Assembly (NCBI RefSeq): GCF_029892045.1
Contig: NZ_CP120367.1
Coordinates: forward strand, 682,001-746,000
Direction: 5' to 3'
Length of the DNA: 64,000 nucleotides
From: Sinorhizobium numidicum
GTDB lineage: Bacteria; Pseudomonadota; Alphaproteobacteria; Rhizobiales; Rhizobiaceae
In this document: positions 7,734-35,438 of the stretch, piece after piece
How the letters are laid out: every line of letters starts with the position of its first letter
How positions within the stretch are numbered: position 1 is the stretch's first letter
Translations under genes and position numbers: made by a program
The notes under the pieces: model-generated
Database searches by the model: none
Told to the model about the DNA's origin: nothing
The model's input: only the letters and a program-made list of their open reading frames with translations

Positions 7734-7988
7734 GGGTTCTCTCCGCTTCTCTCGACCGCAACCATTGCCGTCGATGTGGATGGAGAGTGCCTGCGCGCAC
7801 CGGGGAAGTCCCTGTGACGGGCTTGAATTGTCCTTCAGGGAAGATTGTTTTTTCATCCAAGGGACAGTTGTTCCGACCGGCATGCCTTGCTGCGAGCGGT
7901 GCAGTCAGTTACGCGGTACCGTGCTATCAATGTCCGATGATATTCGCCCGTACTGCGAGCCGAGGGCGCTTGGCCAGGGGATGCCGAC

Positions 7989-20473: not shown

Positions 20474-20687
20474 CTAGAAAGCACCGCTGTGGCGCTCCGC
20501 GCCCGCTCGCTTGCAACGGCTTCGATACGCGTCAAAGTCGTAGTCGCGAACGAGCCGTCCGCTAGATCCTGCGTGCCCTATGAAAATGAATTTCAGGTTT
20601 TGCCCGATTGCTCGGTTTTTTGTTGACGCAATGAAAAATCTATCCCAGTCTGCGAAAATAAATTACGCCATAAGGGAACGGCACAGC
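20474..20687. promoter_or_regulatory. Leader of the carbohydrate uptake operon
   Basis: About 210 bases. It contains the dyad at 20581-20595, a TTGACG hexamer at 20623-20628 that may be a -35 element (no good -10 at standard spacing), and the AAGGGAAC ribosome site for the dehydrogenase gene. The frame upstream of ATG 20688 is open but not protein-like. Confidence 0.35.
20581..20595. promoter_or_regulatory. TGAAA-N5-TTTCA dyad, candidate RpiR operator
   Basis: TGAAA (20581-20585) and TTTCA (20591-20595) are perfect inverted repeats separated by five bases, just upstream of a possible -35 hexamer for the sugar operon. A near-identical dyad with a four-base spacer lies at 29526-29539, in front of the genes for M81/NTF2 and RidA/RpiR. 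RpiR regulators often bind TGAAA/TTTCA-like palindromes (from general knowledge), so the RpiR protein at 30135 is the likely binder. Confidence 0.4.
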
Positions 20688-21848
20688 ATGAAAGTCGGGA
20701 TAATCGGACTCGGATTCCGTCTCGGGTATCTGGGCTATGTCTTCAAGGCGGTCGACGAAAGCTTCGAGATAGTGGGCTATGTCGATCCGGCACCCGCCGG
20801 CCTGGCCAGTCTCGCGGAGAAAGGTATCTCTCCAGGCAAGGCCTATGCCTCGCCGCAGGAACTGATTGCCGGCGAGAAGCTCGATCTCCTGATGATCGGT
20901 TCACCGAACCACATGCATCTCGATCATATCCGCCTCGGTCTCGAAGCGGGGCTGAAGGTTTTCTGCGAAAAGCCGATCGTCAGCACGATCGAGCAAAGCC
21001 TGGAACTTGCGCAGCTCCTGGCGAAACATGGGCATGATCGCCTGATGGTCGGTCTTGTCCTGCGCTATGCACCGATGTATCGCGATCTGCGTAACGCCCA
21101 GTCCGCGGGAACGCTCGGTGAGATCGTTTCCATCGAAGCCGCAGAGCACATCGAACCCTATCATGGCGCATTCTTCATGCGTGATTGGCGCCGCTACGGA
21201 CGCTACGCAGGCAGCTTCATGCTCGAGAAATGCTGCCATGATCTTGATCTCTATAATGGCGTTGTCGGTGCGCGGCCGGAGCGCGTAGCGAGCTTCGGCG
21301 GCCGCAAGAGTTTCGTTCCGGCGAATGACCCCGCCCGTGACGGCATCAACGACCTGGAGCTCTTCCACCGCAAACCGAGCGGATGGCTCGGATCGGACAA
21401 GGTCTTCGACAGCGACGGCGACATCATCGACTACCAGGTTGCGATCATCGAATACGCCAATGGCGTCGCCATGAATTTTCACACCAATCTCAACGTGCCG
21501 GACCAGTTCCGCCGCTTCTGCGTGATGGGGTCGCGCGGCATGGCGGAAGGCGACTTCATTCGCGGCTATCTCGATGTGCATGAGGTGCTTTCCGGCAAGA
21601 AGGTTCTTGAGAAGAAATATCGCAAGGAGACGGCACTTTCACAGCACTACGGTGCGGACGAGGAGATGGCGGCCGACATTCTGGCTCACGTCAAGAACGG
21701 CGCTTCGTTGCCTGTTTCGCCGCTCGATGCGCTCGAGGCAGGTATCCTCGCGCTTTCCATGGATGAGGCGCGGTCGAGGAGGACGGTCGTCGACCTGCGC
21801 CCGCTCTGGGATCGCTTCGATGAAGCCCTGCACGCCCGTGCGGCCTGA
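20688..21848 (+). CDS. Gfo/Idh/MocA family oxidoreductase
   Basis: 386-residue NAD(P)-dependent dehydrogenase. The N-terminus MKVGIIGLGFRLG holds the GxGxxx Rossmann loop; GSPNHMHLDH and VFCEKPIVSTIEQ (residues about 65-105) are the family's EKP motif with the catalytic Lys; DLDLYNGV lies in the substrate domain, with HDLDL giving the active-site His/Asp. This family oxidises or epimerises sugars and cyclitols. ATG 20688 follows AAGGGAA. It is the first gene of a CUT1-type importer operon, so it probably acts on the imported sugar or its product. Confidence 0.86.
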   Translation: MKVGIIGLGFRLGYLGYVFKAVDESFEIVGYVDPAPAGLASLAEKGISPGKAYASPQELIAGEKLDLLMIGSPNHMHLDHIRLGLEAGLKVFCEKPIVSTIEQSLELAQLLAKHGHDRLMVGLVLRYAPMYRDLRNAQSAGTLGEIVSIEAAEHIEPYHGAFFMRDWRRYGRYAGSFMLEKCCHDLDLYNGVVGARPERVASFGGRKSFVPANDPARDGINDLELFHRKPSGWLGSDKVFDSDGDIIDYQVAIIEYANGVAMNFHTNLNVPDQFRRFCVMGSRGMAEGDFIRGYLDVHEVLSGKKVLEKKYRKETALSQHYGADEEMAADILAHVKNGASLPVSPLDALEAGILALSMDEARSRRTVVDLRPLWDRFDEALHARAA

Positions 21849-21861
21849 GAGGGGACGCGGG

Positions 21862-22746
21862 ATGAGTGTTCGCCGCAGCACCATCATCTTCGCCTGGATC
21901 CTGCTTCTTCCTGCCGTTCTCTATGTGACTGTGATCGTCGCCTATCCGCTGGTGGATACGTTCATCCTCTCCTTCACCGATGCCTCGCTGAAGAAAACGA
22001 CCAAATGGGTGGGCACCGCCAACTACGACAAGATCTTCAACGGCACCTTCGCGGAAGTGATCATCCGCACCTTCGTCTGGACCGCCTTTTCGGTGTCGAT
22101 CAAGATGATCATCGGCACCTTCGGTGCAGTGATGCTGAATTCGGCGGTGCCGGGGCGGGCGCTCTTCCGTGTGCTCACCATGCCCCCATGGATCGTGCCG
22201 ATGGCGATCGGCATCTTCATGTGGGGCTGGATGTATAATGGCCAGTTCGGCATGATTTCCGGCATGCTGCAGAACTGGGGCCTAGTCGATGGTCCTGTCG
22301 CCTTCCTCGCCCACGGTTCGACGGCATTTTGGGCAACGATCATCACCGATGTCTGGATCGGTGTGCCGCTGGTGACCCTTTACATGCTGGCCTCGATCCA
22401 GGCGATCCCGCAGGATCTCTACGAGGCGGCCTGGACGGACGGAGCAGGGCGTTTCTACCGTTTCCGCCGCATTACTCTGCCGCTTCTCGTGCCATCGATG
22501 ATCACCATGTCGATGCTGTCGCTGATCGCCACCTTCAACTCGTTCGACATCATCTGGATTCTCACCCAGGGCGGGCCGAACGGCGACACGACGACGATGA
22601 TCATCGATACCTACCGCACCGCGATCGGCTCGAAAAAATACGGGGAGGGTGCCGCCCGCGCTGTGCTCATCTGCATCTTTCTGTCGATTTTCTGCTTCGC
22701 CTACTTCCGCGTCACGCATCGTCTCGCCTCGGGAGAAAGCCGATGA
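21862..22746 (+). CDS. Carbohydrate ABC importer permease (MalF/UgpA type)
   Basis: 294-residue CUT1 permease with six predicted helices; the coupling motif is EAAWTDGAGRFYRFRRITLPLLVPSM (EAA...G...I-LP). The start ATG 21862 follows GAGAGGGGACG; the frame extends upstream but overlaps the dehydrogenase. Its stop overlaps the next permease start (ATGA at 22743-22746). Confidence 0.88.
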   Translation: MSVRRSTIIFAWILLLPAVLYVTVIVAYPLVDTFILSFTDASLKKTTKWVGTANYDKIFNGTFAEVIIRTFVWTAFSVSIKMIIGTFGAVMLNSAVPGRALFRVLTMPPWIVPMAIGIFMWGWMYNGQFGMISGMLQNWGLVDGPVAFLAHGSTAFWATIITDVWIGVPLVTLYMLASIQAIPQDLYEAAWTDGAGRFYRFRRITLPLLVPSMITMSMLSLIATFNSFDIIWILTQGGPNGDTTTMIIDTYRTAIGSKKYGEGAARAVLICIFLSIFCFAYFRVTHRLASGESR

Positions 22747-23600
22747 GCCAACCGGCCATGATCAACCGCTATCGCTGGTACGAGCTGATCGGTATCTACG
22801 CAGGCATCTTCGTCTTCCTGGCGTTCATCCTCGCCCCCTTCGTCGAAGGCTTTCTGGTGTCGCTGAAGCCGCTCGGGCTTCTGTTCTCCTCACCCTACAG
22901 GTTTTGGCCGGAGAACGGTTCTTTCGCCGCCTATCGCAGCATGTGGGTGAGCGTGCCGGGCTTTGCCCGTTACATCTTCAATTCGTTCTTCATTTCCACG
23001 ATCGTCACCGTGATCGTGCTCGTTCTGGTCGTGCCGGCGGCCTATGCCTTTGCGCGGTTCAGGTTCCGCGGCAGCGGGCCGCTGCTTGCGGCCTTTCTGG
23101 CGGTCAACATGTTTTCGGGTGCGGTGCTGCTCATTCCGCTTTTCCGGCTGATGCGCAGCTTCGGCGTGCTCAACACCTATTTCGCGATGATCGTACCGGG
23201 TGTCGCTTTTCTCATTCCGTCGGGCATCTGGTTGCTGCGGACCTACATGATGCGCATTCCGCGCGAACTGGACGAAGCCGCCTTCGTCGACGGGGCAAGC
23301 CATCTCTATACGCTCCGCCGTGTGATCCTGCCGATCGCTATGCCCGGCATTACCGTTGTCGCGATCACGACCTTCATCGGATCGTATGCCCAGCAATTCA
23401 TCTTCGCGCTGACCTTCAACTCGAGGACCGAATACATGCCGCTGCCGATCGGCCTCTATGCTTATTTCGGCCGGCAGGAAGTCATCTGGAATGAACTGAT
23501 GGCGGCGAGCTTCGTCGGCATCGCGCCGGCTGTCATTCTCATCTTCCTGATGCAACGCTATCTCGTCGCGGGCCTGACCGCCGGCGCCGTGAAACAGTAA
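22743..23600 (+). CDS. Carbohydrate ABC importer permease (MalG/UgpE type)
   Basis: 285-residue CUT1 permease, partner of the preceding one. The EAA motif reads DEAAFVDGASHLYTLRRVILPIAMPGI, and the C-terminus MQRYLVAGLTAGAVK is the usual MalG-type end (RYLVxGLTAGAVKG). Six hydrophobic segments. The start at 22743 overlaps the upstream stop. Confidence 0.89.
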   Translation: MSQPAMINRYRWYELIGIYAGIFVFLAFILAPFVEGFLVSLKPLGLLFSSPYRFWPENGSFAAYRSMWVSVPGFARYIFNSFFISTIVTVIVLVLVVPAAYAFARFRFRGSGPLLAAFLAVNMFSGAVLLIPLFRLMRSFGVLNTYFAMIVPGVAFLIPSGIWLLRTYMMRIPRELDEAAFVDGASHLYTLRRVILPIAMPGITVVAITTFIGSYAQQFIFALTFNSRTEYMPLPIGLYAYFGRQEVIWNELMAASFVGIAPAVILIFLMQRYLVAGLTAGAVKQ

Positions 23601-23635
23601 CCGCAACAACGAGCTTCATAAGCGAGGGGAATACC

Positions 23636-24850
23636 ATGACAAAACATGCCTCATTGATTGCCGGAACTTTTGCGCTCATCGTCAGTACCGCATTGCCGGC
23701 GCTCGCCGACACCGAGATCAGCTTCCTGGAATGCGGCGACAAGATGCAGCCGGCTCACGCCGACTTCATCAAGAAATGGGAGGAGGCCAATCCGGGCTAC
23801 AAGATCGCCGCGGAAGTGGTCGGCTGGGGCCAGTGCCAGGACAAGGTGACGACGCTCGCGGCTTCCGGCACGCCGGTGGCGCTTGCCTATGTCGGCTCGC
23901 GCACTTTGAAGGAATTCGCCGACAACGAACTGATAGTGCCGATCACCTTCACCGAAGAGGAGAAGGCTTCCTACTATCCCTATATCATCGACACGGTAAC
24001 GACCGCCGGCAAGCAATGGGGCGTTCCCGTCGCCTTCTCCACAAAGTCGCTCTACTGGAACAAGGCATTGTTCAAGCAGGCCGGCCTTGATCCCGAGAAA
24101 CCGCCGAAGACCTGGGCGGAAGAACTGGAATACGCAAAGACGATCAAGGAAAAGACCGGCATCGCCGGCTTCGGCGTCGTCGCCAAGACCTTCGACAACA
24201 CCATGCATCAGTTTCTGCACTGGGTTTACACCAATAACGGCTCGGTGATCGACGCCGACGGCAACATTACTCTCGACAGCAAGGAAAACCTGGAGGCGCT
24301 GACAGCGCTGACGGACATCGTCCCCTATGCCGAGGAGGGGCCGACCTCCTATGAACAGAACGAAGTGCGGGCGATCTTCCTCGACGGCAAGCTCGGCATG
24401 ATTCACGCTTCAGTCGGAGCCGTGAACCGGCTCAAAGAGACGAAGATCGACTGGGGTGTCGCCCCGCTGCCGCTCGGTCCGAGTGCCAAGGGGCCAGGTA
24501 CGCTTCTAATCACCGACAGCCTTGCCGTGTTTAGTGGCACCGGCGTCGAAGAGAAGGCGATCGAATTCGCAAAATTCCTGACCAATCCCGAAAACCAGCC
24601 GATCTACGAAGGGCAGGAAGGCTTGACGCCGCTGCGTCCGGGCAAGGCGGTGGACGACATGGTCGCGGCCAATCCTTACTGGAAGCCCTTCATCGACGGT
24701 ATCTCCTTCGGCGGGCCGGAACCGCTCTTTACCGACTATAAGGGCTTGCAGAACACGATGATCGAGATGGTCCAGTCGGTCGTCACCGGCAAGGCGGAGC
24801 CGGCCGACGCGTTGAAGAAGGCGGCGGCCGATCTCGAACAATACAAGTAA
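23636..24850 (+). CDS. Carbohydrate ABC importer, extracellular binding protein family 1
   Basis: 404-residue periplasmic protein with a signal peptide (residues 1-24, ALPALA cleavage) and the SBP_bac_1 fold: [58 protein letters not shown] and the late segment [31 protein letters not shown]1 binding proteins of this kind take di- or oligosaccharides or glycosides. The gene precedes a terminator, with the ATPase gene beyond it. The specific ligand cannot be read from sequence; the downstream GH20 enzyme suggests a beta-N-acetylhexosaminide. Confidence 0.89.
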
Positions 24851-24857
24851 GTCCTCG

Positions 24858-24895
24858 GGGACCGCGCGCGTCGGCTTCGCGGTCCCTTCTTTATT
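24858..24895 (+). terminator. Stem-loop between binding-protein and ATPase genes
   Basis: GGGACCGCG (24858-24866) and CGCGGTCCC (24878-24886) form a perfect 9-bp stem followed by TTCTTTATT. It is a good intrinsic terminator or attenuator placed after the binding-protein gene, so the ATPase and downstream genes may be made at lower level. Confidence 0.7.
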
Positions 24896-24936
24896 CGCGG
24901 AAATGCCGCTTTGCGGCGGTGGCCGGAGACAGATTC

Positions 24937-26070
<1,134 letters not shown>

Positions 26071-26084
26071 ACTTGGACGCCTCG

Positions 26085-26576
26085 ATGATCCGACTGCTCA
26101 GTATCGACGACGTGGGAATCTTCCGGCGCATTCGGTTGGAGGCCCTGCGCACCGAGCCCGCCTCATTTGCCAGCAGCATCGAAGATTGGGAAAATCTGGC
26201 GGATGATGAATGGCGCCGTCGAATGATCGATAATGCTGTTTTCGTTGCCTTTCGCGGCGACGAGCCGGTAGGCATTATGGGCTTGATGCGTCAGCGCGCC
26301 AGTAAGATGGCGCATCGGGCAACCGTAGTCATGGTCTATCTGCAGGCGAGCCTGCGGGGAACCGGCGTTGCGCGGATGCTGCTTCAAACGCTTGTGGATC
26401 ATGCGCGGCATGAAGGCATCCGGCAGTTGGAGCTGGCGGTCAGCGCGGAAAACGCCGTGGCTATCCGCTTCTACTTGCGCGAGGGATTTGCGCAGGTCGG
26501 CCGTATTCCCGGCGGTATTCTTCATAATGGCCAGGAGATCGACGATATCGTCATGGCTCGACGCATCGTCGATTGA
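26085..26576 (+). CDS. GNAT family N-acetyltransferase
   Basis: 163-residue GNAT. The acetyl-CoA binding loop is in VYLQASLRGTGVARMLLQTLVDHAR (R/Q-x-x-G-x-G/A form, about residues 88-112), followed by the ELAVSAENAVAIRFYLREGF strand-helix typical of motif B. ATG 26085 is used; a TTG at 26073 is in frame. It follows the ATPase by 14 bases, so is probably cotranscribed; it may acetylate an amino sugar or amine released in the pathway, which is inference. Confidence 0.8.
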   Translation: MIRLLSIDDVGIFRRIRLEALRTEPASFASSIEDWENLADDEWRRRMIDNAVFVAFRGDEPVGIMGLMRQRASKMAHRATVVMVYLQASLRGTGVARMLLQTLVDHARHEGIRQLELAVSAENAVAIRFYLREGFAQVGRIPGGILHNGQEIDDIVMARRIVD

Positions 26577-26616
26577 ATGCTGCGCGTTCCCCGAAGACCT
26601 GCGCCTGTTCGGCGTT

Positions 26617-27265
26617 TCAGAGGGTCGAGTTGAACGCGCCGCCATCCAGCAGCAGGTTCTGGCCGACGATATAGCCTGCATATTGGCTGCAAAGGAATGC
26701 CGCCGCGGCGCCGAACTCGCTTGTGGTACCGACGCGCCCCGTGGGATTTTGCGCATGTTCCTCGGCGCGGGCCTCCTCGAGCGAGATACTCCGCGCCCGG
26801 GCGGTCTTTTCTAGGAGCTGTTCCATGCGCTCTGTGTCATGCGATCCGGGCAGCAGGTTGTTGATGACGACGCCGTGACGCGCGACCTGGCGCGGTCCCG
26901 GCGACGAAGCCGGTGAGGCCGCTGCGGGCGCCGTTGGAGAGACAGAGTTCGGGGATCGGCGACTTGACCGAGGCCGAGGTGATGTTGACGATCCGTCCCC
27001 ATTGCCGCTCGATCATGCTGGGAAGCACAGCCTTCATGAGTAGGATCGGTGCCAGCATGTTGGTCGTTACCGCTTCGCGCCAATTGTCTTCCGTGACGGC
27101 TGACCAATCGCCGGGCGGCGGGCCGCCGGCATTGGTGATGAGAATGTCGGATCGCGGCTCCGCTCGAAGGAGGGCATTGCGGCCTTCTTCCGTCGTCACG
27201 TCTGCAGCCACGATCTCCACTTTCGCGCCGTATTCTTCGCTGATCGCTCGCGCCGTCTCTCGAAG
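26617..27265 (-). pseudogene. Short-chain dehydrogenase pseudogene (N-terminus missing, one frameshift)
   Basis: On the reverse strand, sequence from about 27265 gives LRETARAISEEYGAKVEIVA, then LITNAGGPPPGDW, IERQWGRIVNITSASVKSPI and SNGARSGLTGFVAGT. A frameshift near 26893 then leads into RQVARHGVVINNLLPGSHD and the C-terminus ending with YIVGQNLLLDGGAFNSTL at 26617. The cofactor-binding first about 40 residues (TGxxxGxG) are absent, replaced at 27270 by unrelated sequence. The gene is therefore dead at both places. It is a FabG-like SDR; its original role is unknown. Confidence 0.7.
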
Positions 27266-27371
27266 CTGTTTATTGGCTCATTTTGCCGGAAGACCGACGG
27301 CTTAACACGGCTGCCGAGATCTTCGCATCGTGGCTGAAGGAAGCGGCGACGAGTTCATCTTGCTGTTGCTG

Positions 27372-27464
27372 AAGCGCTCTCGATGTCTTCGCGAAATCCT
27401 CCCCGATGTAGAGCAGCCGGCATCCATGCTCCTTCGCCACTTGATAGGCGAAGCGGTCACCCAC
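27372..27464 (-). pseudogene. C-terminal fragment of a VapC-like PIN-domain toxin
   Basis: The reverse frame from 27464 reads GDRFAYQVAKEHGCRLLYIG then EDFAKT, the characteristic last strand-helix of type II VapC toxins (D/C-FAYA-AK-x-LLY-G-DF--TD). The rest of the PIN domain and its acidic catalytic residues (except this D) are missing, and no antitoxin gene is adjacent. It abuts the SDR pseudogene, so the two form a patch of gene debris. Confidence 0.5.
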
Positions 27465-27517
27465 TCAGCAGGCTCTCCTCAGCTTCAGACCATTCTCTGG
27501 TTCGGGTTACTGCCCTA

Positions 27518-28993
27518 TCAAGCCGCGCCCCTTTCCGGCGTGTGCGGATCGAGAATCATCGGCCAGATGTCGCGCCGCGCCCGCCGATAGGGCGTTTTTG
27601 CCGGATCGTTCGGGTAGGGCGTTCCAGCCGAGCAATAGAGGACTTTCGAGGCGATCTTCGAGAACGAAGCGTAGAAATGGTTCGTCGATTTGACCACGAG
27701 GATCTTCTTCGATTGCGGATCGATGCCCATTACCGAGAACAGGCTCGGGTCGAAGCTCTGCGCGCGCGTGGAATTCAAAATGATGTCGATGCCGCGATAT
27801 TGAATATGCGCTGCGTCGCCGAAAGGCGCGAAGCTCTCTCCGAACCGCATTTCGGCATTCCGCACCAGGCGCATGACTTTTACCTTGCCGTCGATCGGAT
27901 TGCCGGTGCCGGGCGCGGACTTCGCGCCGAAGCGCAACGGTATCTCGGCGCCTTGGCCGGCCGCCATGCAGATCTGCACCGCCATCGGATCCCAGATGGT
28001 GCCGATCGCCGCATCGGTGACGCCGTTGGCGAGCAACTCTTCGAGGACGACCGTCGCGTCGCCGGCCGTGCCGCCGCCCGGATTGTCCCACATGTCGGCG
28101 ATCACCACCGGACCGGCGGTTGTGGCGATCGCCTCGGCGACGGCCTGGCGCTCGTCGATCTCCGGCATGCGGAATGTGCCGCGCTTGGCAAAAAGTTCGA
28201 GCCCGAGTTCGCGGGCCAGAGCCTGGCCCTTTTCCGGATTGCCGTCGGTCACCGCAATCATCTTCGTACCCATTTCCGGAACGTCGCCGGCCATGAAGCC
28301 ATGCACGACGGAAAGCGACAGAACGTCGGCATTATCCTTCTCGATCCTTATGAGTTTGTCGACGAAGCTGCGCATTGGCTCGCGCGAGGTCGGGAACACG
28401 TCGATCATCCGGCAATCGAAAACCGACATTACCGGTTTGATGCGGCCTTCGAGCGTGTCGATCGCAATGCGCCACAGATCCTCGGCGCGGTCGACGAAAT
28501 CGGTATGCGGAAATTCCTTGAAGAAGACGAAGAAATCGGCGGCCGCGACCCGCTTCTGAGTGAGATGGCTGTGCGGGTCGAGTTCGGCGCAGACGAGCAC
28601 GTCCGGACCGACGATGGCACGAACGCGCGTCAGGAGGTCGCCTTCCGTGTCCTCGTAGCCGTCGGCGACCATCGCTCCATGCAGGCCGAGAATGACGGCA
28701 TCGACAGGAAGGGCCGCATGCAACTGATCTATGATCTCGTCGCGCAGCGTTTCATAGGTCTCGCGATTGACAAGGCCGGCCGGGTCCGCCCAGGCAGCCG
28801 TTCCCTCGATCAACTGCCAGCCCTTCTCTGCGGCGACTCGTCGGCCGACGGTGATCGGCGCTGTGCAGAGCGTAGGGGTCTCCGGGTGTTTGCCGGCTGG
28901 CGCGTAGAGCGAGGCTTCGAAAGCGCGTTTGTCGATGCAGATGGGCGAGAAGGTGTTTGTTTCGGTCGCCAGGGCCGCCGTGAAGATACGCAA
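27518..28993 (-). CDS. M81 family metallopeptidase (MlrC-like), first copy
   Basis: 491-residue MlrC-like protein. DUF1485/M81 features in order: MRIFTAALATETNTFSPI, the LGLHGAMVADGYEDTEGD zinc-site region, AELDPHSHLTQK (His pair), FKEFPHTDFVDRA, and the C-terminal MlrC domain with DNPGGGTAGDATVVLEELL and LVVKSTNHFYASF. MlrC cleaves the linear tetrapeptide of microcystin in sphingomonads; rhizobial homologues have unknown substrates. A TTG at 28993 behind GAGGAAAAG is taken as start because the family begins there; the frame continues to 29329 over the NTF2-like gene. It is in one leftward operon with that gene. Confidence 0.85.
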   Translation of the reverse strand: MRIFTAALATETNTFSPICIDKRAFEASLYAPAGKHPETPTLCTAPITVGRRVAAEKGWQLIEGTAAWADPAGLVNRETYETLRDEIIDQLHAALPVDAVILGLHGAMVADGYEDTEGDLLTRVRAIVGPDVLVCAELDPHSHLTQKRVAAADFFVFFKEFPHTDFVDRAEDLWRIAIDTLEGRIKPVMSVFDCRMIDVFPTSREPMRSFVDKLIRIEKDNADVLSLSVVHGFMAGDVPEMGTKMIAVTDGNPEKGQALARELGLELFAKRGTFRMPEIDERQAVAEAIATTAGPVVIADMWDNPGGGTAGDATVVLEELLANGVTDAAIGTIWDPMAVQICMAAGQGAEIPLRFGAKSAPGTGNPIDGKVKVMRLVRNAEMRFGESFAPFGDAAHIQYRGIDIILNSTRAQSFDPSLFSVMGIDPQSKKILVVKSTNHFYASFSKIASKVLYCSAGTPYPNDPAKTPYRRARRDIWPMILDPHTPERGAA

Positions 28994-29019
28994 TGCCGTC
29001 GCCTTTTCCTCGCCCCGCT

Positions 29020-29448
29020 CTAGTTGGAACCCATCGGATTGGGCAGGTAGCCTGTGAAGCCGCAAATTTTCCAGCGGTCTTCCTGCCGGCGGCAGTAATA
29101 GACGGTCTGCCACTTCATGACGTCGAAGCCGCCATCGGCTTTCTTCAGGCCGCCGTCGAATTTCTTGCGCGCCAGCGCCTGGTCGCCGTTGATCTCGATG
29201 TCCGCGAGCGTGGTGGTGGCGAAGATGGCCGCGCGCGGGTCCTCGGCAAAGGATTGACCGGCGAAATCCCTCGCCTGGCGCAGCCATTCGTCGCGGTAAG
29301 CTGTAAGCGACGGAAAGGCGAGGCGCCATTTATCCGGATTCGTTTCCCGCCTTCCATCGATGCCGATGAAGCCATCCTCCACGAAATCCTCGGCGACCAT
29401 GGGCCAGTCGGCAGCGAGGAAAGCATCGATGTCCCTTGGCACCAGCAT
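29020..29448 (-). CDS. NTF2-like (SnoaL-fold) small protein
   Basis: 142-residue protein with NTF2-like character: an N-terminal helix LVPRDIDAFLAADWPMVAED, the strand pair with GFIGIDG, and a C-terminal beta sheet ending RWKICGFTGYLP. No catalytic residues can be assigned. The frame stays open upstream to about 29560 without an ATG; ATG 29448 or GTG 29442 (GGGAG 6 bases before it) are the candidate starts. It is the first gene of the leftward operon with the M81 gene, 26 bases apart. Small NTF2-fold enzymes often isomerise, dehydrate or hydrolyse; the role here is unknown. Confidence 0.7.
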   Translation of the reverse strand: MLVPRDIDAFLAADWPMVAEDFVEDGFIGIDGRRETNPDKWRLAFPSLTAYRDEWLRQARDFAGQSFAEDPRAAIFATTTLADIEINGDQALARKKFDGGLKKADGGFDVMKWQTVYYCRRQEDRWKICGFTGYLPNPMGSN

Positions 29449-29525
29449 CTCCCAGATCGAACGTCGCGCGGTATCGAAGTGGGGAATGGGTTCTGGAAGG
29501 GATCCCGCATTGTTTCGCCCTAGAT

Positions 29526-29539
29526 TGAAATTCTTTTCA
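29526..29539. promoter_or_regulatory. TGAAA-N4-TTTCA dyad, candidate RpiR operator
   Basis: TGAAA (29526-29530), TTCT, TTTCA (29535-29539) sits in the shared control region between the leftward NTF2/M81 genes and the rightward RidA/RpiR/SDR/GH20/M81 genes. It matches the dyad at 20581-20595 in front of the sugar importer. A looser copy (TGAAGAAAATAATTTGCA, about 29594-29611) lies nearer the RidA start. Confidence 0.42.
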
Positions 29540-29623
29540 TAAATGACGTTTTTCTCTGGTCAAATTCGGCTTTCTATGGTCACTTGTCAACGGTTGAAGA
29601 AAATAATTTGCACAAGGTCTCTG

Positions 29624-30058
29624 ATGCCCATCAAACGTTACGATGCCGAGCAGGTCGAGGCAGGCGGCGAGTCATTGCCTTTCGCGCGTGCTGTCGAGGC
29701 GGACGGATGGCTGCACGTGTCCGGTCAAGTGGCCATGGAAGACGGCGAGGTCGTCAGCGGCAATATCGTGGCGCAGACGCACAAGGCGATCGGCAATCTT
29801 CTGACCATTTTGAAAGAGGCCGGTTACAGTGTCGAGCACGTCGTAAGGGACGGTGTCTGGCTAGACGACGCGCGCGATTTCTGGAGTTTCAACAAGATCT
29901 ATCAGGAATATTTCGGGGTTCATCCGCCGGCGCGCGCCTGCGTTCAGTCTTCGATGATGGTCGACTGCAAGGTGGAGATCGACTGCGTCGCGTATAGCAG
30001 AAGGACGCCTGATATAATGCGAGATGAGAAGTGCGTGCGGTTTTCCGCCCGCATCTAA
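29624..30058 (+). CDS. RidA family (enamine/imine deaminase) protein with a RIME-encoded tail
   Basis: 144-residue RidA/YjgF-type protein: LPFARAVEADGWLHVSGQVAM, then IVAQTHKAIGNLLTILKEAGYSVEHVV and the ending R-A-C-V-Q-S near residue 107 with VDCKVEIDCVAYS, where family members normally stop at about 125 residues. The conserved Arg of ARACVQ is present. RidA proteins hydrolyse reactive enamines/imines released by PLP- or flavin-dependent amine chemistry. The last about 20 residues (SRRTPDIMRDEKCVRFSARI) are read from the RIME1-like element at 30013, so the stop was displaced. Start ATG 29624 with AAGG upstream. Confidence 0.85.
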   Translation: MPIKRYDAEQVEAGGESLPFARAVEADGWLHVSGQVAMEDGEVVSGNIVAQTHKAIGNLLTILKEAGYSVEHVVRDGVWLDDARDFWSFNKIYQEYFGVHPPARACVQSSMMVDCKVEIDCVAYSRRTPDIMRDEKCVRFSARI

Positions 30059-30117
30059 GTAGAGTCGATCACGTGGGTGATTTTCGGTCCATTCAACCCA
30101 AATCACACACGTGATCT
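30013..30117. repeat. RIME1-like mosaic element, copy 1
   Basis: First arm region GATGAGAAGTGCGTGCGG..TTTTCCGCCCGCATC (30023-30055), then GTCGATCACG..GATTTTCGG and CCAAATCACACACGTGATC (30064-30117): two imperfect palindromes in the same order as at 37145 and 50463. This copy is the most diverged in its left arm. It overlaps the 3' end of the RidA gene and ends just before the RpiR gene. Naming as RIME1 is from memory of Rhizobium intergenic mosaic elements. Confidence 0.7.
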
Positions 30118-30134
30118 GAAGGGATGGCCGTTCG

Positions 30135-30998
30135 ATGGATATTTTCGCGACACTGCAGGAGGAAAAGGGGCGGCTTTCCCAGTCGGAGAGTCGCATTGCC
30201 GATATCCTGCTCAATGACTTCGAGTTTGCGGTGAACGCCTCGATCATCGAGCTTGCGGGGAAGGCGGACGTGTCGCCGCCGACGGTTACGCGCTTCTGCC
30301 GGCGTCTCGGTTGCGAGAGCTTCTCCGATTTCAAGGTCCAGTTGGCGCGCACTGCCTACATAGGCATGAGGTATCTCAAGCCCGAGCCGAAGAGCCGGGA
30401 GCCGGCTGATGTCGCGCAGGACATCATCACCAAGGCGCAGAACGCGCTGTTTCTGCTGCACCGTTCCCTCGACCTGGTGGCGATCGAGCGGGCGACCGAC
30501 CGACTGGCCAGTGCGGAAATGATTTACGCTTTCGGTTCCGGCGGCAATTCGTCGATGATTGCAAGCGAATTGCAAAATCGCCTGTTTCGTCTCGGCTTGC
30601 GCATAACGTCGAGCTCCGACCACAGCATGCAATTGATGATGGCGGCGGCGGCCAAGCCCACCGATGTGCTCATCGGCTCGTCCTTTTCGGGTCGCAATGC
30701 CGAGCTGGTGCGCGCTTTTACGCTCGCCCGCGAAGCCAAGGTGGCAACGATTGCGCTCACCCAAGGCGGCAGCCCGGTGGCACAAGCGGCCGATATCACC
30801 GTGCCGGTCGACCTGCCGGAGGGCAACAACATCTATCGTCCAACATCCACGCGCATCGCCTATCTGGCGCTGCTTGATATCGTTGCCAGCCTCGTCGCCT
30901 ACCGCATCCAGCCGCAGGCGACGACGACACTGAGGCGGATCAAGCAGCAACTGGTCGTGCACAGGGATGGCGACGATCGCCAGCTTCTCGGAGACTGA
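30135..30998 (+). CDS. RpiR/MurR family transcriptional regulator
   Basis: 287 residues. N-terminal RpiR helix-turn-helix: LSQSESRIADILLNDFEFAV, then IIELAGKADVSPPTVTRFCR (about residues 36-57). C-terminal SIS sugar-phosphate-binding domain: MIYAFGSGGNSSMIASELQNRLFRLG and DVLIGSSFSGRN (about 125-180). RpiR proteins respond to phosphorylated or amino sugars. It lies within the rightward operon between the RidA and SDR genes, so it is probably autoregulated and controls the adjoining uptake and hydrolysis genes through the TGAAA/TTTCA dyads. Confidence 0.9.
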   Translation: MDIFATLQEEKGRLSQSESRIADILLNDFEFAVNASIIELAGKADVSPPTVTRFCRRLGCESFSDFKVQLARTAYIGMRYLKPEPKSREPADVAQDIITKAQNALFLLHRSLDLVAIERATDRLASAEMIYAFGSGGNSSMIASELQNRLFRLGLRITSSSDHSMQLMMAAAAKPTDVLIGSSFSGRNAELVRAFTLAREAKVATIALTQGGSPVAQAADITVPVDLPEGNNIYRPTSTRIAYLALLDIVASLVAYRIQPQATTTLRRIKQQLVVHRDGDDRQLLGD

Positions 30999-31017
30999 CG
31001 TGCCACAGGAAGCCCGC

Positions 31018-31794
31018 ATGACAAAATCCGTAGCGATCGTGACCGGGGCGGCGGGTGATATCGGCCGCGCGATCGCCCGACGCCTTGCCGACGATCACGA
31101 CGTGATCCTGCTCGCCGACATCGACCGCGATGCTGCGGAGAAAGTCGCGCGCGATCTGGGCGAAGCGGGGCGGTTCGCAGCGTTTTCGTGTGACGTCACC
31201 GACGCTGCGAGCGTAGCCTCTATGGCTGCAGCCGCAGGCGCGATCGGAGCAGTTCGCACGCTCGTCAACAATGCGGGGGCGGCGCGCGCGGTTAGCCTGC
31301 ACGATACGACGCAGGATATCTGGCGGATGGATAATGCACTCAACTTGGAGGCCGCCTTCCTTTGCTTCCGGGCAGTCGAGAATATGTTGAAGGAGACGAG
31401 GGGTTCGGTCGTCAACATCGCCTCCGTTAACGGCATGAGCGTCTTTGGCCATCCGGCCTATAGCGCCGCCAAGGCGGGTCTCCTCCATTTGACCCGGTTG
31501 ATTGCCGTCGAATATGGCAAGTTCGGCATCCGCTCGAATGCCGTGGCGCCGGGCACCGTCCGCACCCAGGCCTGGGAAGCACGCGCCGCGGCGAACCCTC
31601 AGGTCTTCGAAGAGGCAAAGCGCTGGTATCCGCTTCAGTGCATCGTCAATCCGGAAGACGTCGCCAATGCCGTCCATTTCCTGGCGGGCCCGCAGGCAAG
31701 CGCCATTTCCGGCGTCTGCCTGCCGGTCGATTGCGGGCTCACCGCAGGCCAAGCCGAACTCGCCCGCACCTTTTCGCAGTCCAGCCACTACTGA
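31018..31794 (+). CDS. Short-chain dehydrogenase/reductase
   Basis: 258-residue classical SDR: cofactor loop TGAAGDIG (residues 8-15), NNAGAA, catalytic Ser in NIASVNGMS, Tyr-x3-Lys in PAYSAAKAGLLHLTR, and the C-terminal CLPVDCGLTAG. Start ATG 31018 follows CAGGAA. Located between the RpiR and GH20 genes with short gaps, it probably reduces or oxidises a product of the imported glycoside; the specific reaction is unknown. Confidence 0.87.
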   Translation: MTKSVAIVTGAAGDIGRAIARRLADDHDVILLADIDRDAAEKVARDLGEAGRFAAFSCDVTDAASVASMAAAAGAIGAVRTLVNNAGAARAVSLHDTTQDIWRMDNALNLEAAFLCFRAVENMLKETRGSVVNIASVNGMSVFGHPAYSAAKAGLLHLTRLIAVEYGKFGIRSNAVAPGTVRTQAWEARAAANPQVFEEAKRWYPLQCIVNPEDVANAVHFLAGPQASAISGVCLPVDCGLTAGQAELARTFSQSSHY

Positions 31795-31817
31795 CGTTTC
31801 CTATTTGGAGGATGCCA

Positions 31818-33743
31818 ATGCTGCCGGTCTCTTATCGCCTCGAATCTGTCTGGGAACCGGACGGCGGGCCATGCGGACGCTTCACCTTCACACTCTTCAA
31901 CCTGTCGGATCGGCCGCTCAGCGGCTTCCGTCTCGCCTATACTTCGCTGACCCGCATTGTTGACCCGTCGGCTTGCGACAATGCCACCTTCCTGCGCCGC
32001 AACGCCAATTTCCATGAATTCGCGCCGCTCGCGGGCACGACGCTCCGGCCTGGAGAAGGCTGGACCTTTACCGTCAGTGGCCTTCATCGGCCGGCAAAAC
32101 ATTGCACGGACGGGGCAAAGTCGGCCTACCTGACGCTTTCGAATGGCCGGCATGTACCTGTGGCTGTTTCCGATCTTCTCCTCGAAGGGGCAATGAGTGA
32201 GCCGCCTCCGGTACGCTTGCCAGAGGGCAGGCTCGATCTACCTTTTGCGCTGCAACCCTGGCCGGCGGAGATCGACGCCGTGCCGGGCGATGGTTTTCCG
32301 GTGGTTCTCTACCCGGCAACCGGCAGCAGTGCAGACGAGATCAACGCGATCTCGAATGTTCTGGCGCTTTTCCATCGACTCTTTCCGGCGGGACATGCTC
32401 CTTTCAGTCTTGCTGCATCAAAGCAGGGGCGCGGGATCGTCTTCACGAGGAAAACGCATCTCGCACCGGAGGTTTACGCGCTTCACTTCACCAATGAAGA
32501 AGTTCGCCTGGACTACGGCGCATCCGCCGGCCGACAATACGCTCTGACGACGCTTGCGCAGCTTCTCAACGGCGCCCGCCATGAGCCGAGTAAATTCCGC
32601 TTCCCGGTACAGGGGAGTATTTCCGATGCGCCTCGCTACGGTTGGCGCGGTTGCCATCTCGATGTCTCGCGGCAATTCTATCCGACTGCCGATGTCGCTC
32701 GCCTCATCGATATTCTTGCTTGGTTCAAGCTCAATGTCTTCCACTGGCATCTGACTGACGACGAGGCTTGGCGGCTGGAGATCAGGGCCTATCCGACCCT
32801 GACGACGCTCGGTGTCTTGCGCGGCCCCGACGAGCCGATGCTGCCGCAGCTCGGCAACGGCGCCGACCCAGTCGGCGGCTTCTATAGCCAGGAGGACGTG
32901 AAGGCCATCGTGGCGCACGCCGCTGCGCTCAATGTCGAGGTCGTTCCGGAGATCGACATTCCCGGCCACAGCACCGCCGCGCTCATCGCGCTCCCGGAGC
33001 TTGCCGATGGGCAGGAGGCGCCCGAGAGCTATCATTCGGTCCAGGGTTATCCCAACAACGCGCTTAACCCCGCTATCCCGCTGACCTATGAATTCCTCGA
33101 AAAGGTGTTCGATGAAATGGTCGGACTCTTTCCGAGCCAATATATTCATGTCGGCGGGGATGAGGTGGCGGATGGATCCTGGCTGGCGTCGCCCTTAGCG
33201 CGCAGGCTGATGGAAGAGGAGGGCATCTCCGGCACCTTCGCTCTGCAATCCTACTTCCTCAAAAAGGTGAAGCAGATGCTGACGGCGCGCGGCCGAAAGC
33301 TCGTCGGCTGGAACGAGGTCGCCCATGGTGGTGGCGTCGGAACCGAGGGCACGCTGCTGATGGCCTGGGAGAACCCGAAGGTCGGAATTGAACTGGCGCG
33401 CGAGGGCTACGACGTCGTCATGACGCCGGGGCAGGCCTATTACCTCGACATGGCACAGGCGGAAGCCTGGCAGGAGCCAGGCGCGAGCTGGGCCGGCACG
33501 GCAACACCGGCGCATACTTATGCCTATGAGGCGGAGGGCGAGTTTCCGGAAGACTTGAAGGGCCGCATGAAGGGCGTGCAGGCCTGCATCTGGTCGGAGC
33601 ACTTCCTGTCGCGCGGCTATTTCAATCGCCTCGTCTTTCCGCGCCTGCCCGCCATCGCCGAAGCGGCCTGGACGCCGAGGTCCCAAAAGGACTGGCAGCG
33701 TTTCGCCGCGATCGCACCTCTGACCCCGATTTTGCGAGCGTGA
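31818..33743 (+). CDS. Cytoplasmic GH20 beta-N-acetylhexosaminidase
   Basis: 641 residues without a signal peptide. Domains: an N-terminal beta-sandwich like the bacterial CHB_HEX carbohydrate-binding region (about 1-115), the GH20b domain (about 130-245, ending GRQYALTTLAQLL), then the catalytic barrel (about 255-610) with CHLDVSRQFYP, FHWHLTDDEAWR, EIDIPGHSTAALI and the catalytic pair D448-E449 in HVGGDEV; QACIWSEHF closes the site. GH20 enzymes remove terminal GlcNAc or GalNAc with retention using the substrate acetamido group. ATG 31818 lies 6 bases after GGAGG. It is in the RpiR operon, so it acts on imported material. Confidence 0.92.
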   Translation: MLPVSYRLESVWEPDGGPCGRFTFTLFNLSDRPLSGFRLAYTSLTRIVDPSACDNATFLRRNANFHEFAPLAGTTLRPGEGWTFTVSGLHRPAKHCTDGAKSAYLTLSNGRHVPVAVSDLLLEGAMSEPPPVRLPEGRLDLPFALQPWPAEIDAVPGDGFPVVLYPATGSSADEINAISNVLALFHRLFPAGHAPFSLAASKQGRGIVFTRKTHLAPEVYALHFTNEEVRLDYGASAGRQYALTTLAQLLNGARHEPSKFRFPVQGSISDAPRYGWRGCHLDVSRQFYPTADVARLIDILAWFKLNVFHWHLTDDEAWRLEIRAYPTLTTLGVLRGPDEPMLPQLGNGADPVGGFYSQEDVKAIVAHAAALNVEVVPEIDIPGHSTAALIALPELADGQEAPESYHSVQGYPNNALNPAIPLTYEFLEKVFDEMVGLFPSQYIHVGGDEVADGSWLASPLARRLMEEEGISGTFALQSYFLKKVKQMLTARGRKLVGWNEVAHGGGVGTEGTLLMAWENPKVGIELAREGYDVVMTPGQAYYLDMAQAEAWQEPGASWAGTATPAHTYAYEAEGEFPEDLKGRMKGVQACIWSEHFLSRGYFNRLVFPRLPAIAEAAWTPRSQKDWQRFAAIAPLTPILRA

Positions 33744-33747
33744 CGCC

Positions 33748-35202
33748 ATGCGGATCGCCGTCGGTGGAATCCATACGGAATGCAGCACCTATTCGCCCGT
33801 CCTGACGACGATGGAGGACTTTCGGTTCCTAAGGGGAGAGGACCTTCTGAACGCAAACTATTTCGATTTCCTCGATGCGGCTGGCGTCGAGCATATTCCA
33901 CTTCTTCATGCCCGCGCCGTGCCCGGCGGTCCGCTGTCGCCTCGCGCCTATGACGCGTTCAAGGCGGAGTTTCTCGAGCGGCTCGAGGATGCTCTACCGC
34001 TCGAGGGCCTCTACCTCGCCATGCACGGTGCGATCAAGGTCCAGGGCATGGATGATGCCGAAGGCGATTGGATTTCTGCGGCGCGCGACGTTGTCGGGCA
34101 GGCTTGCCCGATTGCCGTGAGCTACGATCTCCACGGCAATGTCAGCCAGCGGATCATCGACCAGATCGATATCTTCGCCGCCTATCGCACCGCGCCGCAT
34201 ATCGATACCCGCGAGACTATGATCAGAGCCTGGTCGATGCTGGTTGACGCCCTTCGCCATCGCACGCATCCGGGCGTTGCCTGGGCGCCGGTGCCTGTGC
34301 TTTTGCCGGGCGAGTGCACATCGACGGAGGATGAACCGGCAAAGAGCCTCTATCGCCGTCTGTCCGAAGTCGATGGAAGGCCCGGCATTCTCGATGCCAA
34401 TTTGATGGTCGGCTATGTCTGGGCGGACGAACCGCGCGCGACCGCCTGTGCCGTGGTGACGGGACTGGACAAAGAGGCCGCCTCGAAAGCAGCAGAGGAA
34501 ATTGCCGCAAACTACTGGAACAAAAGGAAACGCTTCTCCTTCGGTCCGGTAACTGGTGCACTCGACTCTATGCTCGATATTGCCGAGCAGGCGACGACCA
34601 GGCCCGTCATTCTCGCCGATTCCGGTGACAATCCGACAGGTGGCGGTGTCGGCGACCGTGCCGATGTACTGAGAGCGCTTCTCTCGCGCGGCTGGCGCGA
34701 TGCGCTCATCGCCGGCATTGCCGATCGACCTGCAGTCGAAGCGTGTTTCGCGGCTGGGGAGGGTAGGACACTCCCTTTGCGGATCGGCGGCAGTCTCGAC
34801 CCGTCCAGCGTCGTCGCGGACGTAACAGCCGAGGTGGTGCGCCTCGACAACCCAGGTCCGGCAGCGGAACGCCAGGCGGTGGTGCGCGTCGACGGCATCG
34901 AGGTCGTCCTTTCGGCACGGCGGCGTCCCTACCACAACATCGCGGATTTTCGTCGCCTTGGTCTCGATCCGAAGACCGTGCGCCTGCTCGTCGTCAAGTC
35001 GGGCTATCTTTCGCCGGAACTCGCGCCGATCGCCAATCCCAATCTGATGGCGCTCACCGAGGGCGTCGTCAATCAGGATATCGAAAACCTCGCGAGTGAC
35101 CGTCGGCAGCGCCCGGTTTTTCCCTTCGACCGCGATTTCGATTTCGAGCCCAGGTCGCGACTCTCGGCTCGCTGGTCTAGTCCGGCTTTCAGTAGGTTCT
35201 AA
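33748..35202 (+). CDS. M81 family metallopeptidase (MlrC-like), second copy
   Basis: 484-residue MlrC-like protein starting four bases after the GH20 stop. Order of motifs matches the first copy: MRIAVGGIHTECSTYSPV, YLAMHGAIKVQGMDDAEGD, SYDLHGNVSQR, AAYRTAPHIDTRET, DSGDNPTGGGVGDRADVLRALL and RLLVVKSGYLSPE. The zinc-site His and Asp residues are present. It is clearly divergent from the copy at 27518-28993, so not a recent duplicate. Two M81 enzymes with a GH20 hexosaminidase suggest hydrolysis of amide or peptide-like bonds in the same imported compound, which is inference. Confidence 0.86.
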   Translation: MRIAVGGIHTECSTYSPVLTTMEDFRFLRGEDLLNANYFDFLDAAGVEHIPLLHARAVPGGPLSPRAYDAFKAEFLERLEDALPLEGLYLAMHGAIKVQGMDDAEGDWISAARDVVGQACPIAVSYDLHGNVSQRIIDQIDIFAAYRTAPHIDTRETMIRAWSMLVDALRHRTHPGVAWAPVPVLLPGECTSTEDEPAKSLYRRLSEVDGRPGILDANLMVGYVWADEPRATACAVVTGLDKEAASKAAEEIAANYWNKRKRFSFGPVTGALDSMLDIAEQATTRPVILADSGDNPTGGGVGDRADVLRALLSRGWRDALIAGIADRPAVEACFAAGEGRTLPLRIGGSLDPSSVVADVTAEVVRLDNPGPAAERQAVVRVDGIEVVLSARRRPYHNIADFRRLGLDPKTVRLLVVKSGYLSPELAPIANPNLMALTEGVVNQDIENLASDRRQRPVFPFDRDFDFEPRSRLSARWSSPAFSRF

Positions 35203-35438
35203 CGCATCTCGCTGCCGCCGGGCCACGGGCGGCCTCCCACGACTTCAGTGTTGCACACTTTGTGCTCGGCACACGCATCAGCGGTTATTCCGGAACCGCG
35301 CTTCTCGGTGCGCTCGCAGGGGTGGCAGACTTCGTCCTGCTCCTGCTCCTCGACGGCGATCATGGCCGGCGAGCGCCGGCACCCGAACAGGCCCCTTTCA
35401 GGAGCAGCGGGAGGCCGGCTGCGACCTCCCGTGTTTCC
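35203..35438. other. Intergenic between convergent genes
   Basis: About 235 bases; an open plus-strand frame here is not protein-like. The only structure is the hairpin at 35408-35431 listed separately. Confidence 0.4.
35408..35431 (-). terminator. Hairpin downstream of hutU
   Basis: CGGGAGG (35408-35414) and CCTCCCG (35425-35431) form a 7-bp stem eight bases past the hutU stop on the reverse strand. No T-run follows in that direction (CTGCTCCTG), so it may end or protect the message. Confidence 0.4.

Follow-up and report, generated by a model that had tools for sequence, protein, structure and literature searches.

A rhizobial gene set joining a GH20 hexosaminidase to M81 metallohydrolases, and its possible part in oxidized amino-sugar catabolism

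The ong oxidative-chitin pathway of Pseudoalteromonas prydzensis ACAM 620 comprises a GH20 enzyme (OngA), the deacetylase OngB, which acts on N-acetyl-D-glucosaminate (GlcNAc1A), the pyridoxal-phosphate (PLP) deaminase OngC, which turns D-glucosaminate (GlcN1A) into 2-keto-3-deoxygluconate (KDG) and also deaminates D-Ser and D-Thr, the RidA protein OngD, KdgK, and the RpiR repressor OngR; the complete pathway is reported from Gammaproteobacteria and one Betaproteobacterium only (PMC9537276). A partly similar glucosaminate route is predicted for haloarchaea (PMC12343721). Here, we analyzed a 64,000-nucleotide stretch of Sinorhizobium numidicum NZ_CP120367.1 (682,001-746,000; genome size 6.72 Mb, three contigs), hereafter the window, in which a locus at 20.6-35.2 kb joins a CUT1 importer, an RpiR regulator and a RidA protein to a GH20 hexosaminidase and two M81 metallohydrolases, M81a and M81b. 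We propose that this locus, under RpiR control, serves the catabolism of beta-linked N-acetylhexosamine (HexNAc) compounds and ends in oxidized amino-sugar (aldonic acid) metabolism, a reading whose chances of being right or wrong we consider about equal.

The locus shares with ong a GH20 predicted to act on oligosaccharides containing N-acetylglucosamine (GlcNAc), an RpiR protein, a RidA protein and a proposed deacetylase step, while a fold-III PLP deaminase and a KDG kinase are shared only by relatives of the locus (PMC9537276). An earlier note on this DNA, which knew of no described pathway with such a gene set, thus put the case too strongly. The two also differ: ong has TonB receptors and a sodium symporter in place of a CUT1 importer (TRAP or Dpp in distant clusters), OngA is periplasmic where the locus GH20 is apparently cytoplasmic as judged by eye, OngB has a D-aminoacylase fold where the locus has M81, and the locus adds Gfo/Idh, short-chain dehydrogenase (SDR) and NTF2-like proteins. 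In our reading, which we judge evenly poised, the locus would work like ong without being a member of it. An OngB-type deacetylase was not found in the cluster, and the window gave a weak, partial 44-residue match (E 0.001) outside the locus, the rest of the S. numidicum genome not having been searched.

Gene content, linkage and promoter boxes

Open reading frames (ORFs), profiles and gene junctions gave the list below, in which every gene except permease G and the NTF2-like gene has profile support. The gene set named in the earlier note (CUT1, Gfo/Idh, GNAT, M81, NTF2-like, RidA, RpiR, SDR, GH20 and a second M81) is present in full; two relics, a frameshifted SDR gene and the tail of an MFS gene, had escaped that note, as had an apparent frameshift in the NTF2-like gene. 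By eye, an opu-type ABC operon flanks the locus on one side and hut genes on the other.

20581-20595, + strand: RpiR-type box 1 upstream of Gfo, palindrome TGAAA-N5-TTTCA, GAAAATGAATTTC
20653-20667, + strand: RpiR-type box 2 upstream of Gfo, pattern match
20688-21848, + strand: Gfo/Idh/MocA oxidoreductase (PF01408 1.2e-18, PF02894, PF22725)
21862-22746, + strand: CUT1 permease F (PF00528 2.6e-15; synteny)
22743-23600, + strand: CUT1 permease G (synteny only, with permease F, binding protein and ATPase)
23636-24850, + strand: CUT1 substrate-binding protein (PF01547 2e-41)
24919-26070 (possible start 24937), + strand: MalK/UgpC-type importer ATPase (PF00005, OB_MalK, TOBE_2; NF008653 above cut-off)
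26073-26576, + strand: GNAT acetyltransferase, probably accessory (PF00583 1.7e-16)
26620-27271, - strand: relic of a second SDR gene in two frames (tblastn with the intact homolog of locus L039)
27518-28993, - strand: M81a, predicted MlrC-like amide hydrolase (PF07364 5.5e-80, PF07171; MlrC zinc-site residues kept)
29020-29448, - strand: NTF2-fold (SnoaL-like) protein (AlphaFold model of a relative with Foldseek)
29526-29539, - strand: RpiR-type box 3 in the divergent NTF2-like/RidA promoter region, AAATTCTTTTCAT
29599-29609, + strand: RpiR-type box 4 in the same promoter region, GAAAATAATTTG
29624-30058, + strand: RidA-family enamine/imine deaminase (PF01042 9e-26)
30135-30998, + strand: RpiR-family regulator, nearest HexR (PF01418 and PF01380)
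31018-31794, + strand: SDR (NF005474 at 441 bits, above the cut-off of 361)
31818-33743, + strand: GH20 beta-N-acetylhexosaminidase, probably cytoplasmic (PF00728 1.4e-109)
33748-35202, + strand: M81b, predicted second M81 amide hydrolase, adjoining GH20 (PF07364 9.8e-98, PF07171)
35235-35384, + strand: relic (tail) of an MFS (SET-like) transporter gene (tblastn; intact in relatives)

The importer combines an SBP_bac_1 binding protein, two BPD permeases (G by synteny) and a MalK-type ATPase with TOBE, as expected of the CUT1 class; its binding protein is without a close relative in the PDB (best 6dtq, 2.4e-24). The GH20 protein is nearest to Nag2 (6ezr, 7.6e-112), keeps the catalytic pair D448-E449 in 196 of 196 aligned segments, and showed no signal peptide when its sequence was inspected by eye.

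We evaluated how firmly these genes hold together by scanning genomes with GH20 and keeping the best 80 of 173 places (Sinorhizobium/Ensifer, Rhizobium and other Rhizobiales), with gene presence counted at identities of at least 55%. The locus was largely syntenic across these places, and in five families it was rearranged yet together. All 80 carried the SDR, 79 RpiR, 76 each M81a and the NTF2-like gene, 66 the ATPase, 64 RidA, 51 each M81b and the MFS transporter, and 48 a PLP enzyme that is described below; the four loci without M81a and the NTF2-like gene are cut by contig ends. In ten loci (L034-L038, L040, L068, L069, L072 and L074) the importer was not found in the sequence covered upstream, so it is not always adjacent. 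M81b occurs in 69 of 394 genomes at the family level, and its neighborhoods were followed in 46 distinct places (30 short loci and 20 longer ones, four being in both; 23 genomes lie outside). GH20 adjoins M81b in 35 of these places and is missing from one otherwise intact module (L176); where M81b is at most 62% identical to that of the window, GH20 stood beside it in 0 of 10 places.

At the order level, 45 of 297 genomes had a GH20 match (E<=1e-30), S. numidicum itself a single one, and we compared all 47 GH20 loci outside this genome, counting M81 at an identity of at least 50% within the stretch. Twenty of the 47, from five families, had M81, and these carried the importer in 19 cases, RpiR in 19, RidA and M81a in 18 each, M81b and SDR in 16 each, the PLP enzyme and the NTF2-like gene in 14 each and Gfo in 11, as against one importer, one RpiR, three NTF2-like genes, three Gfo and no RidA, M81a, M81b, SDR or PLP enzyme in the 27 loci without M81, at identity thresholds chosen after the matches had been seen. 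Fisher p-values for this contrast take no account of relatedness and do not serve as proof here. Some of the 27 hold weaker matches to RidA (25-28%) and SDR (29-34%), and one (L213) appears to be a module truncated by the edge of its stretch; among the 20, L215 has a GH20 paralog some 4 kb from the module. GH20 lineages only 40-44% identical to that of the window also accompany M81 (L158, L159, L162), and in family f16 (L158, L159) the order reads Gfo, permease F, permease G, binding protein, ATPase, RpiR, GH20 and M81b, adjoining M81a, RidA, SDR, RpiR and the PLP enzyme. Within the order, M81 genes are widespread, occurring in 129 of 297 genomes (E<=1e-20), so that their mere presence means little and it is adjacency that counts. 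A linkage that survives rearrangement is evidence for shared function, and, judged by gene order, the set is a real unit: the coupling of GH20 and M81 across rhizobia, on which the earlier note had staked its reading, withstood the comparison. At the class level GH20 was found in 6 of 337 genomes, S. numidicum included, and the module was not found in the one stretch examined there (L250).

The shared dyads that the earlier note had described also proved real. The pattern GAAAA[T/G][A/G]?AATT[T/A] has four matches in the whole window, two of them upstream of Gfo and the other two in the stretch separating the NTF2-like and RidA genes, compared with a mean of 0.03 and a maximum of 1 in 200 shuffles of two-base blocks. 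Because the pattern was derived from these four sites, the independent facts are its absence elsewhere in the window and its conservation: box 1 lies upstream of Gfo in all 8 relatives with that region covered, and boxes 3 and 4 recur in the intergenic region of 73 and 75 of 76 relatives, respectively. The regulator carries the HTH_6 and SIS domains of the RpiR family; its best model is HexR (194 bits, below the NCBIfam cut-off of 296). The boxes lie in the two expected promoter regions and are candidate target sites of this RpiR protein.

M81 proteins, the PLP enzyme of relatives and distant clusters

M81a and M81b are 26% identical to each other and constitute the only two PF07364 matches in the genome. 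Both belong to M81 by a profile score above the cut-off and by five metal-site residues, kept in 128 of 128 aligned segments for M81a and 126 of 126 for M81b (overlapping loci included). The characterized M81 enzyme, MlrC, cleaves peptides (PMC9982164), and its substrate and metal-site residues have been described (PMC9982164, PMC12474180). M81a matches MlrC (PDB 7ylq) at 187 of 474 aligned residues and keeps E39, H133, D167, H169 and H191 (the last ligand is given as H196 in one place and as H191 in others; PMC9982164), whereas W59, F67, E70, S485 and R492 are replaced. The two M81 proteins score 385.9 and 149.1 bits against an NCBIfam MlrC cut-off of 999, and with this and the replaced substrate residues we rejected degradation of the microcystin type. 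We propose that M81a hydrolyzes amides but acts on a substrate other than that of MlrC, probably a more polar one and most likely an N-acetyl-aldonate. Among the literature matches listed (titles and beginnings of abstracts, with subscription papers mostly outside), none gave M81 a role beyond microcystins or accounted for the rhizobial locus.

Relatives of the locus carry genes that it lacks. In 48 of 55 loci from Rhizobium and other Rhizobiales (L058-L112), a fold-III PLP enzyme (Ala_racemase_N/D-ser_dehydrat) lies between the importer and M81a. Its solved relatives are D-Thr aldolases, D-threo-3-hydroxyaspartate dehydratase, D-3-hydroxyaspartate aldolase and D-Ser dehydratase (182-186 bits with the nearest solved enzyme), and it shares both family and metal motif with this D-Ser/D-Thr dehydratase-aldolase group (PF14031; 3wqc, 4v15). 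The motif reads PNHTC, close to the PNHAC of the dehydratase 3wqc, while the aldolases 4v15 and 7dib read PSHVD; the otherwise near-identical entries 3wqg (PNHAA) and 4pb3 (PNAAC) we take as mutants of those motif residues. All 94 aligned segments, among them that of a paralog in S. numidicum, retain the lysine, histidine and cysteine. RidA is a usual companion of such PLP enzymes, and D-glucosaminate belongs among the beta-hydroxy amino acids of the D-Thr type, with 2R configuration.

Clusters in more distant genomes were compared as well. Of 289 class-level genomes, 69 contain relatives of M81a, and seven longer class-level stretches were examined, six for M81a and one for GH20. In L246, a KdgK-type kinase stands with RpiR and RidA; a TRAP importer, M81a and the PLP enzyme come next, and an NTF2-like gene follows them. 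The kinase of L246 scores 300 bits with NF052444 (cut-off 400), and two of its three PDB matches are KDG kinases, the best being an uncharacterized sugar kinase. L247 pairs M81a with the PLP enzyme beside a Dpp-type importer, RidA and RpiR, its kinase sharing 38% identity with the L246 kinase, and in L249 M81a has the PLP enzyme and RpiR about 5 kb off; no such module was present in the examined stretches of L248, L251 and L252. The PLP enzyme beside M81a and RidA, together with a KDG-kinase-type protein in two distant clusters, points to an amino-sugar acid. At the phylum level, homologs of the PLP enzyme occur in 48 of 329 genomes, and M81a was present in four of the 16 stretches examined (L264-L267). 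In L264 and L267 the module has another CUT1-type importer, with GH20 missing from the stretch, and in L265 and L266 both GH20 and M81b are missing from between SDR and MFS.

One cluster, L154, carries Gfo, importer, GH20, M81b, PLP enzyme, RpiR, RidA, SDR and the NTF2-like gene without M81a, and has in addition an OngB-family protein, whose PDB relatives are N-acyl-D-glutamate deacylase, D-aminoacylase and PpOngB (9kb1, 4.9e-59) and whose best NCBIfam model is an amidohydrolase subfamily (155 bits, below cut-off). We considered a clean exchange of M81a for OngB and rejected it: the cluster of genome G203 lacks M81a and has an OngB-family protein, and a second M81 of that genome (30%) lies elsewhere with a dipeptide-type importer. 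OngB-family proteins (E<=1e-60) occur in 2 of 14 genomes of the G203 genus, G203 and G1280, the G1280 copy being in a different kind of locus, so that an exchange would rest on one cluster. Taken as a whole, the module of the relatives appears to parallel ong function by function, with M81 in the position of the deacetylase.

A candidate route and its rivals

In the route that we propose, the CUT1 importer would take up a GlcNAc-containing oligosaccharide or its C1-oxidized form, and the cytoplasmic GH20 would cut off HexNAc residues. GlcNAc1A would come from the released reducing end, or from GlcNAc oxidized inside the cell by Gfo/Idh or SDR, and would be de-N-acetylated by M81a and perhaps M81b as well. 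The resulting D-glucosaminate would be converted to KDG by a PLP enzyme of the D-Ser-dehydratase type, with RidA clearing the enamine or imine, and KDG would enter the Entner-Doudoroff route, which fits the HexR-like regulator. A more specific version, in which the M81 proteins of this clade are physiological deacetylases of N-acetyl-aldonates (of the GlcNAc1A type) that arose independently of OngB, and in which rhizobia, with no need of LPMO, oxidize GlcNAc in the cell through Gfo/Idh or SDR and proceed through D-glucosaminate to KDG without prior phosphorylation of the sugar, we put forward only tentatively, as possible and rather doubtful. The proposal would give a testable role to a locus of many Sinorhizobium and Rhizobium genomes, soil bacteria that meet fungal and arthropod chitin, and it would assign M81 metallohydrolases a physiological reaction. 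If true, the oxidative amino-sugar route would reach Alphaproteobacteria with other importers and another deacetylase, a case of non-orthologous replacement.

Several observations weigh against this route. The PLP enzyme was not found in the window and is present in none of the 25 loci of the window's branch (L033-L057; L049 is too short to tell). The only homolog found in the S. numidicum genome is a paralog at C1:1136962 (54%), about 0.43 Mb from the locus, so that the function would come from this paralog or else the pathway has diverged. The paralog (53-54%) lies with a second RidA (66% identical to that of the window) in L187:5865-10521 (C1 about 1.133-1.138 Mb), and by eye its neighbors include an ABC importer for polar amino acids and a regulator of the IclR type, a setting that could point to D-amino acids; L187 is probably a D-amino-acid locus. 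The OngB fold is unrelated to M81 (PMC12017989), which makes M81 as a deacetylase an analogy. E70, the proposed general acid/base of MlrC (PMC9982164), is Leu in 128 of 128 M81a segments; M81a would then activate water otherwise or differ more than assumed, and we hold the proposed route, in its general and its specific version, with lower confidence for this reason. In the other clusters, the PLP enzyme accompanies M81a in 4 of 29 class-level loci (about 1.5 kb on each side; one at 32%), 12 of the 16 stretches around PLP homologs are without M81a, and the Dpp-type importer of L247 suggests peptides. KdgK gave no significant match in the window and was not found in the rhizobial clusters searched, save for a weak 24% match in L153. 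The OngB-family case is that of L154 alone, where M81b is retained, and 14 of 80 loci are without the ATPase, four of these being truncated at contig ends. LPMO_10 (PF03067) had no match in the genome at E<=0.001; with free GlcNAc seemingly served by a NagA locus elsewhere, internal oxidation or scavenging are the options left for GlcNAc1A. The HexNAc may be GlcNAc or N-acetylgalactosamine.

The best-surviving rival, which we consider unlikely though to be reckoned with, is that the imported N-acetylhexosaminide is joined to a peptide, an amide or an unusual (D-)amino acid, with GH20 freeing the sugar, M81 hydrolyzing the amide bond, and the D-amino acid left to the PLP enzyme and RidA. Peptide cleavage by MlrC (PMC9982164), the M81a-PLP pair beside a Dpp-type importer in L247, the deamination of D-Ser and D-Thr by OngC (PMC9537276), and the apparent amino-acid importer next to the S. 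numidicum paralog all speak for it. The importer of the rhizobial clusters, however, is of the sugar class CUT1, the products of D-Ser or D-Thr would not account for neighbors of the KDG-kinase type, and W59, F67 and E70 of MlrC are lost in M81a. The earlier note had drawn essentially this picture, and its regulon-like unit that imports and dismantles an N-acetylhexosaminide stands as a supported proposal, whereas the conjugate (peptide, antibiotic-like glycoside or unusual amino acid) is weakened by the PLP enzyme and the KDG-kinase-type neighbors; the idea of a peptide or antibiotic glycoside is not needed.

Ordinary use of chitobiose or GlcNAc oligosaccharides, with GH20 releasing GlcNAc for NagK and NagA and side reactions falling to M81, RidA and the oxidoreductases, seems to us distinctly improbable. 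It draws on Nag2 as the closest solved structure to GH20, on NagA-like and NagK-like ORFs seen by eye next to GH20 in genomes of family f51, and on a nag locus elsewhere in the genome (L188:365-11591; C2 about 183-195 kb), which has NagA above cut-off, a CutC match and, by eye, a CUT1-type importer, a BadF-type kinase, a SIS protein and a ROK kinase. That locus, however, has a CUT1-type importer of its own and seems to serve free GlcNAc; it shares import and de-N-acetylation of amino sugars with the locus of the window, and no GH20, M81 or RidA match was found in it. NagA acts on a phosphorylated sugar. Furthermore, M81, RidA, SDR and the importer travel together, and M81a, PLP enzyme, RidA and RpiR occur without GH20 in the examined stretches of L246, L264, L265 and L267. 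Finally, muropeptide recycling, with GH20 freeing GlcNAc from N-acetylmuramic acid (MurNAc) peptides, M81 cutting the lactyl-peptide amide and RpiR sensing MurNAc-6-phosphate, can point to MurR as a member of the RpiR family (a weak model match, 53.5 bits of 408) and to the annotation of M81 as a peptidase, but it is very improbable with a regulator nearest HexR, a dehydratase-type PLP enzyme without an evident place, and no protein of the MurQ, AnmK, NagZ or AmpD type among the ten locus proteins scanned per library, the rest of the genome not having been searched.

NTF2-like protein, relics and accessory genes

The NTF2-like protein had no match in Pfam or NCBIfam. The AlphaFold model of an Ensifer relative (P0002, pLDDT 87.6) resembles NTF2-like structures (Foldseek best E 2.9e-6, TM about 0.5-0.6, identity 12-19%), and some sources label its relatives SnoaL-like. 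Homologs at 52-55% identity (L160:6739-7221, L205:11889-12380 and L208:6150-6641) share loci with GH20 and, by eye, with GH3-, NagK- and NagA-like ORFs, linking the family, if these neighborhoods are a guide, to GlcNAc metabolism. The gene of the window seems to be frameshifted near its start (29449-29510, - strand), and relatives begin about 21 codons earlier in another frame.

The second SDR, a relic here, is intact in the Ensifer locus L039. There, a class-V aminotransferase, a RidA-like protein and a LysR regulator come after it, and some Sinorhizobium loci have such a trio. GNAT is present in 9 of 25 loci of the window's branch and in 0 of 55 of the others (L058-L112). CutC-family genes turn up repeatedly next to GH20/M81b clusters, and also within the nag locus (L154:12239-12982, L188:9991-10671, L144, L146, L153 and others), hinting at an amino-sugar role for CutC. 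In the GH20-less M81a module of L264, an ORF resembling a GH1 beta-glucosidase by eye (7663-9060) lies between RpiR and the PLP enzyme, so that the sugar-cutting enzyme may vary between modules.

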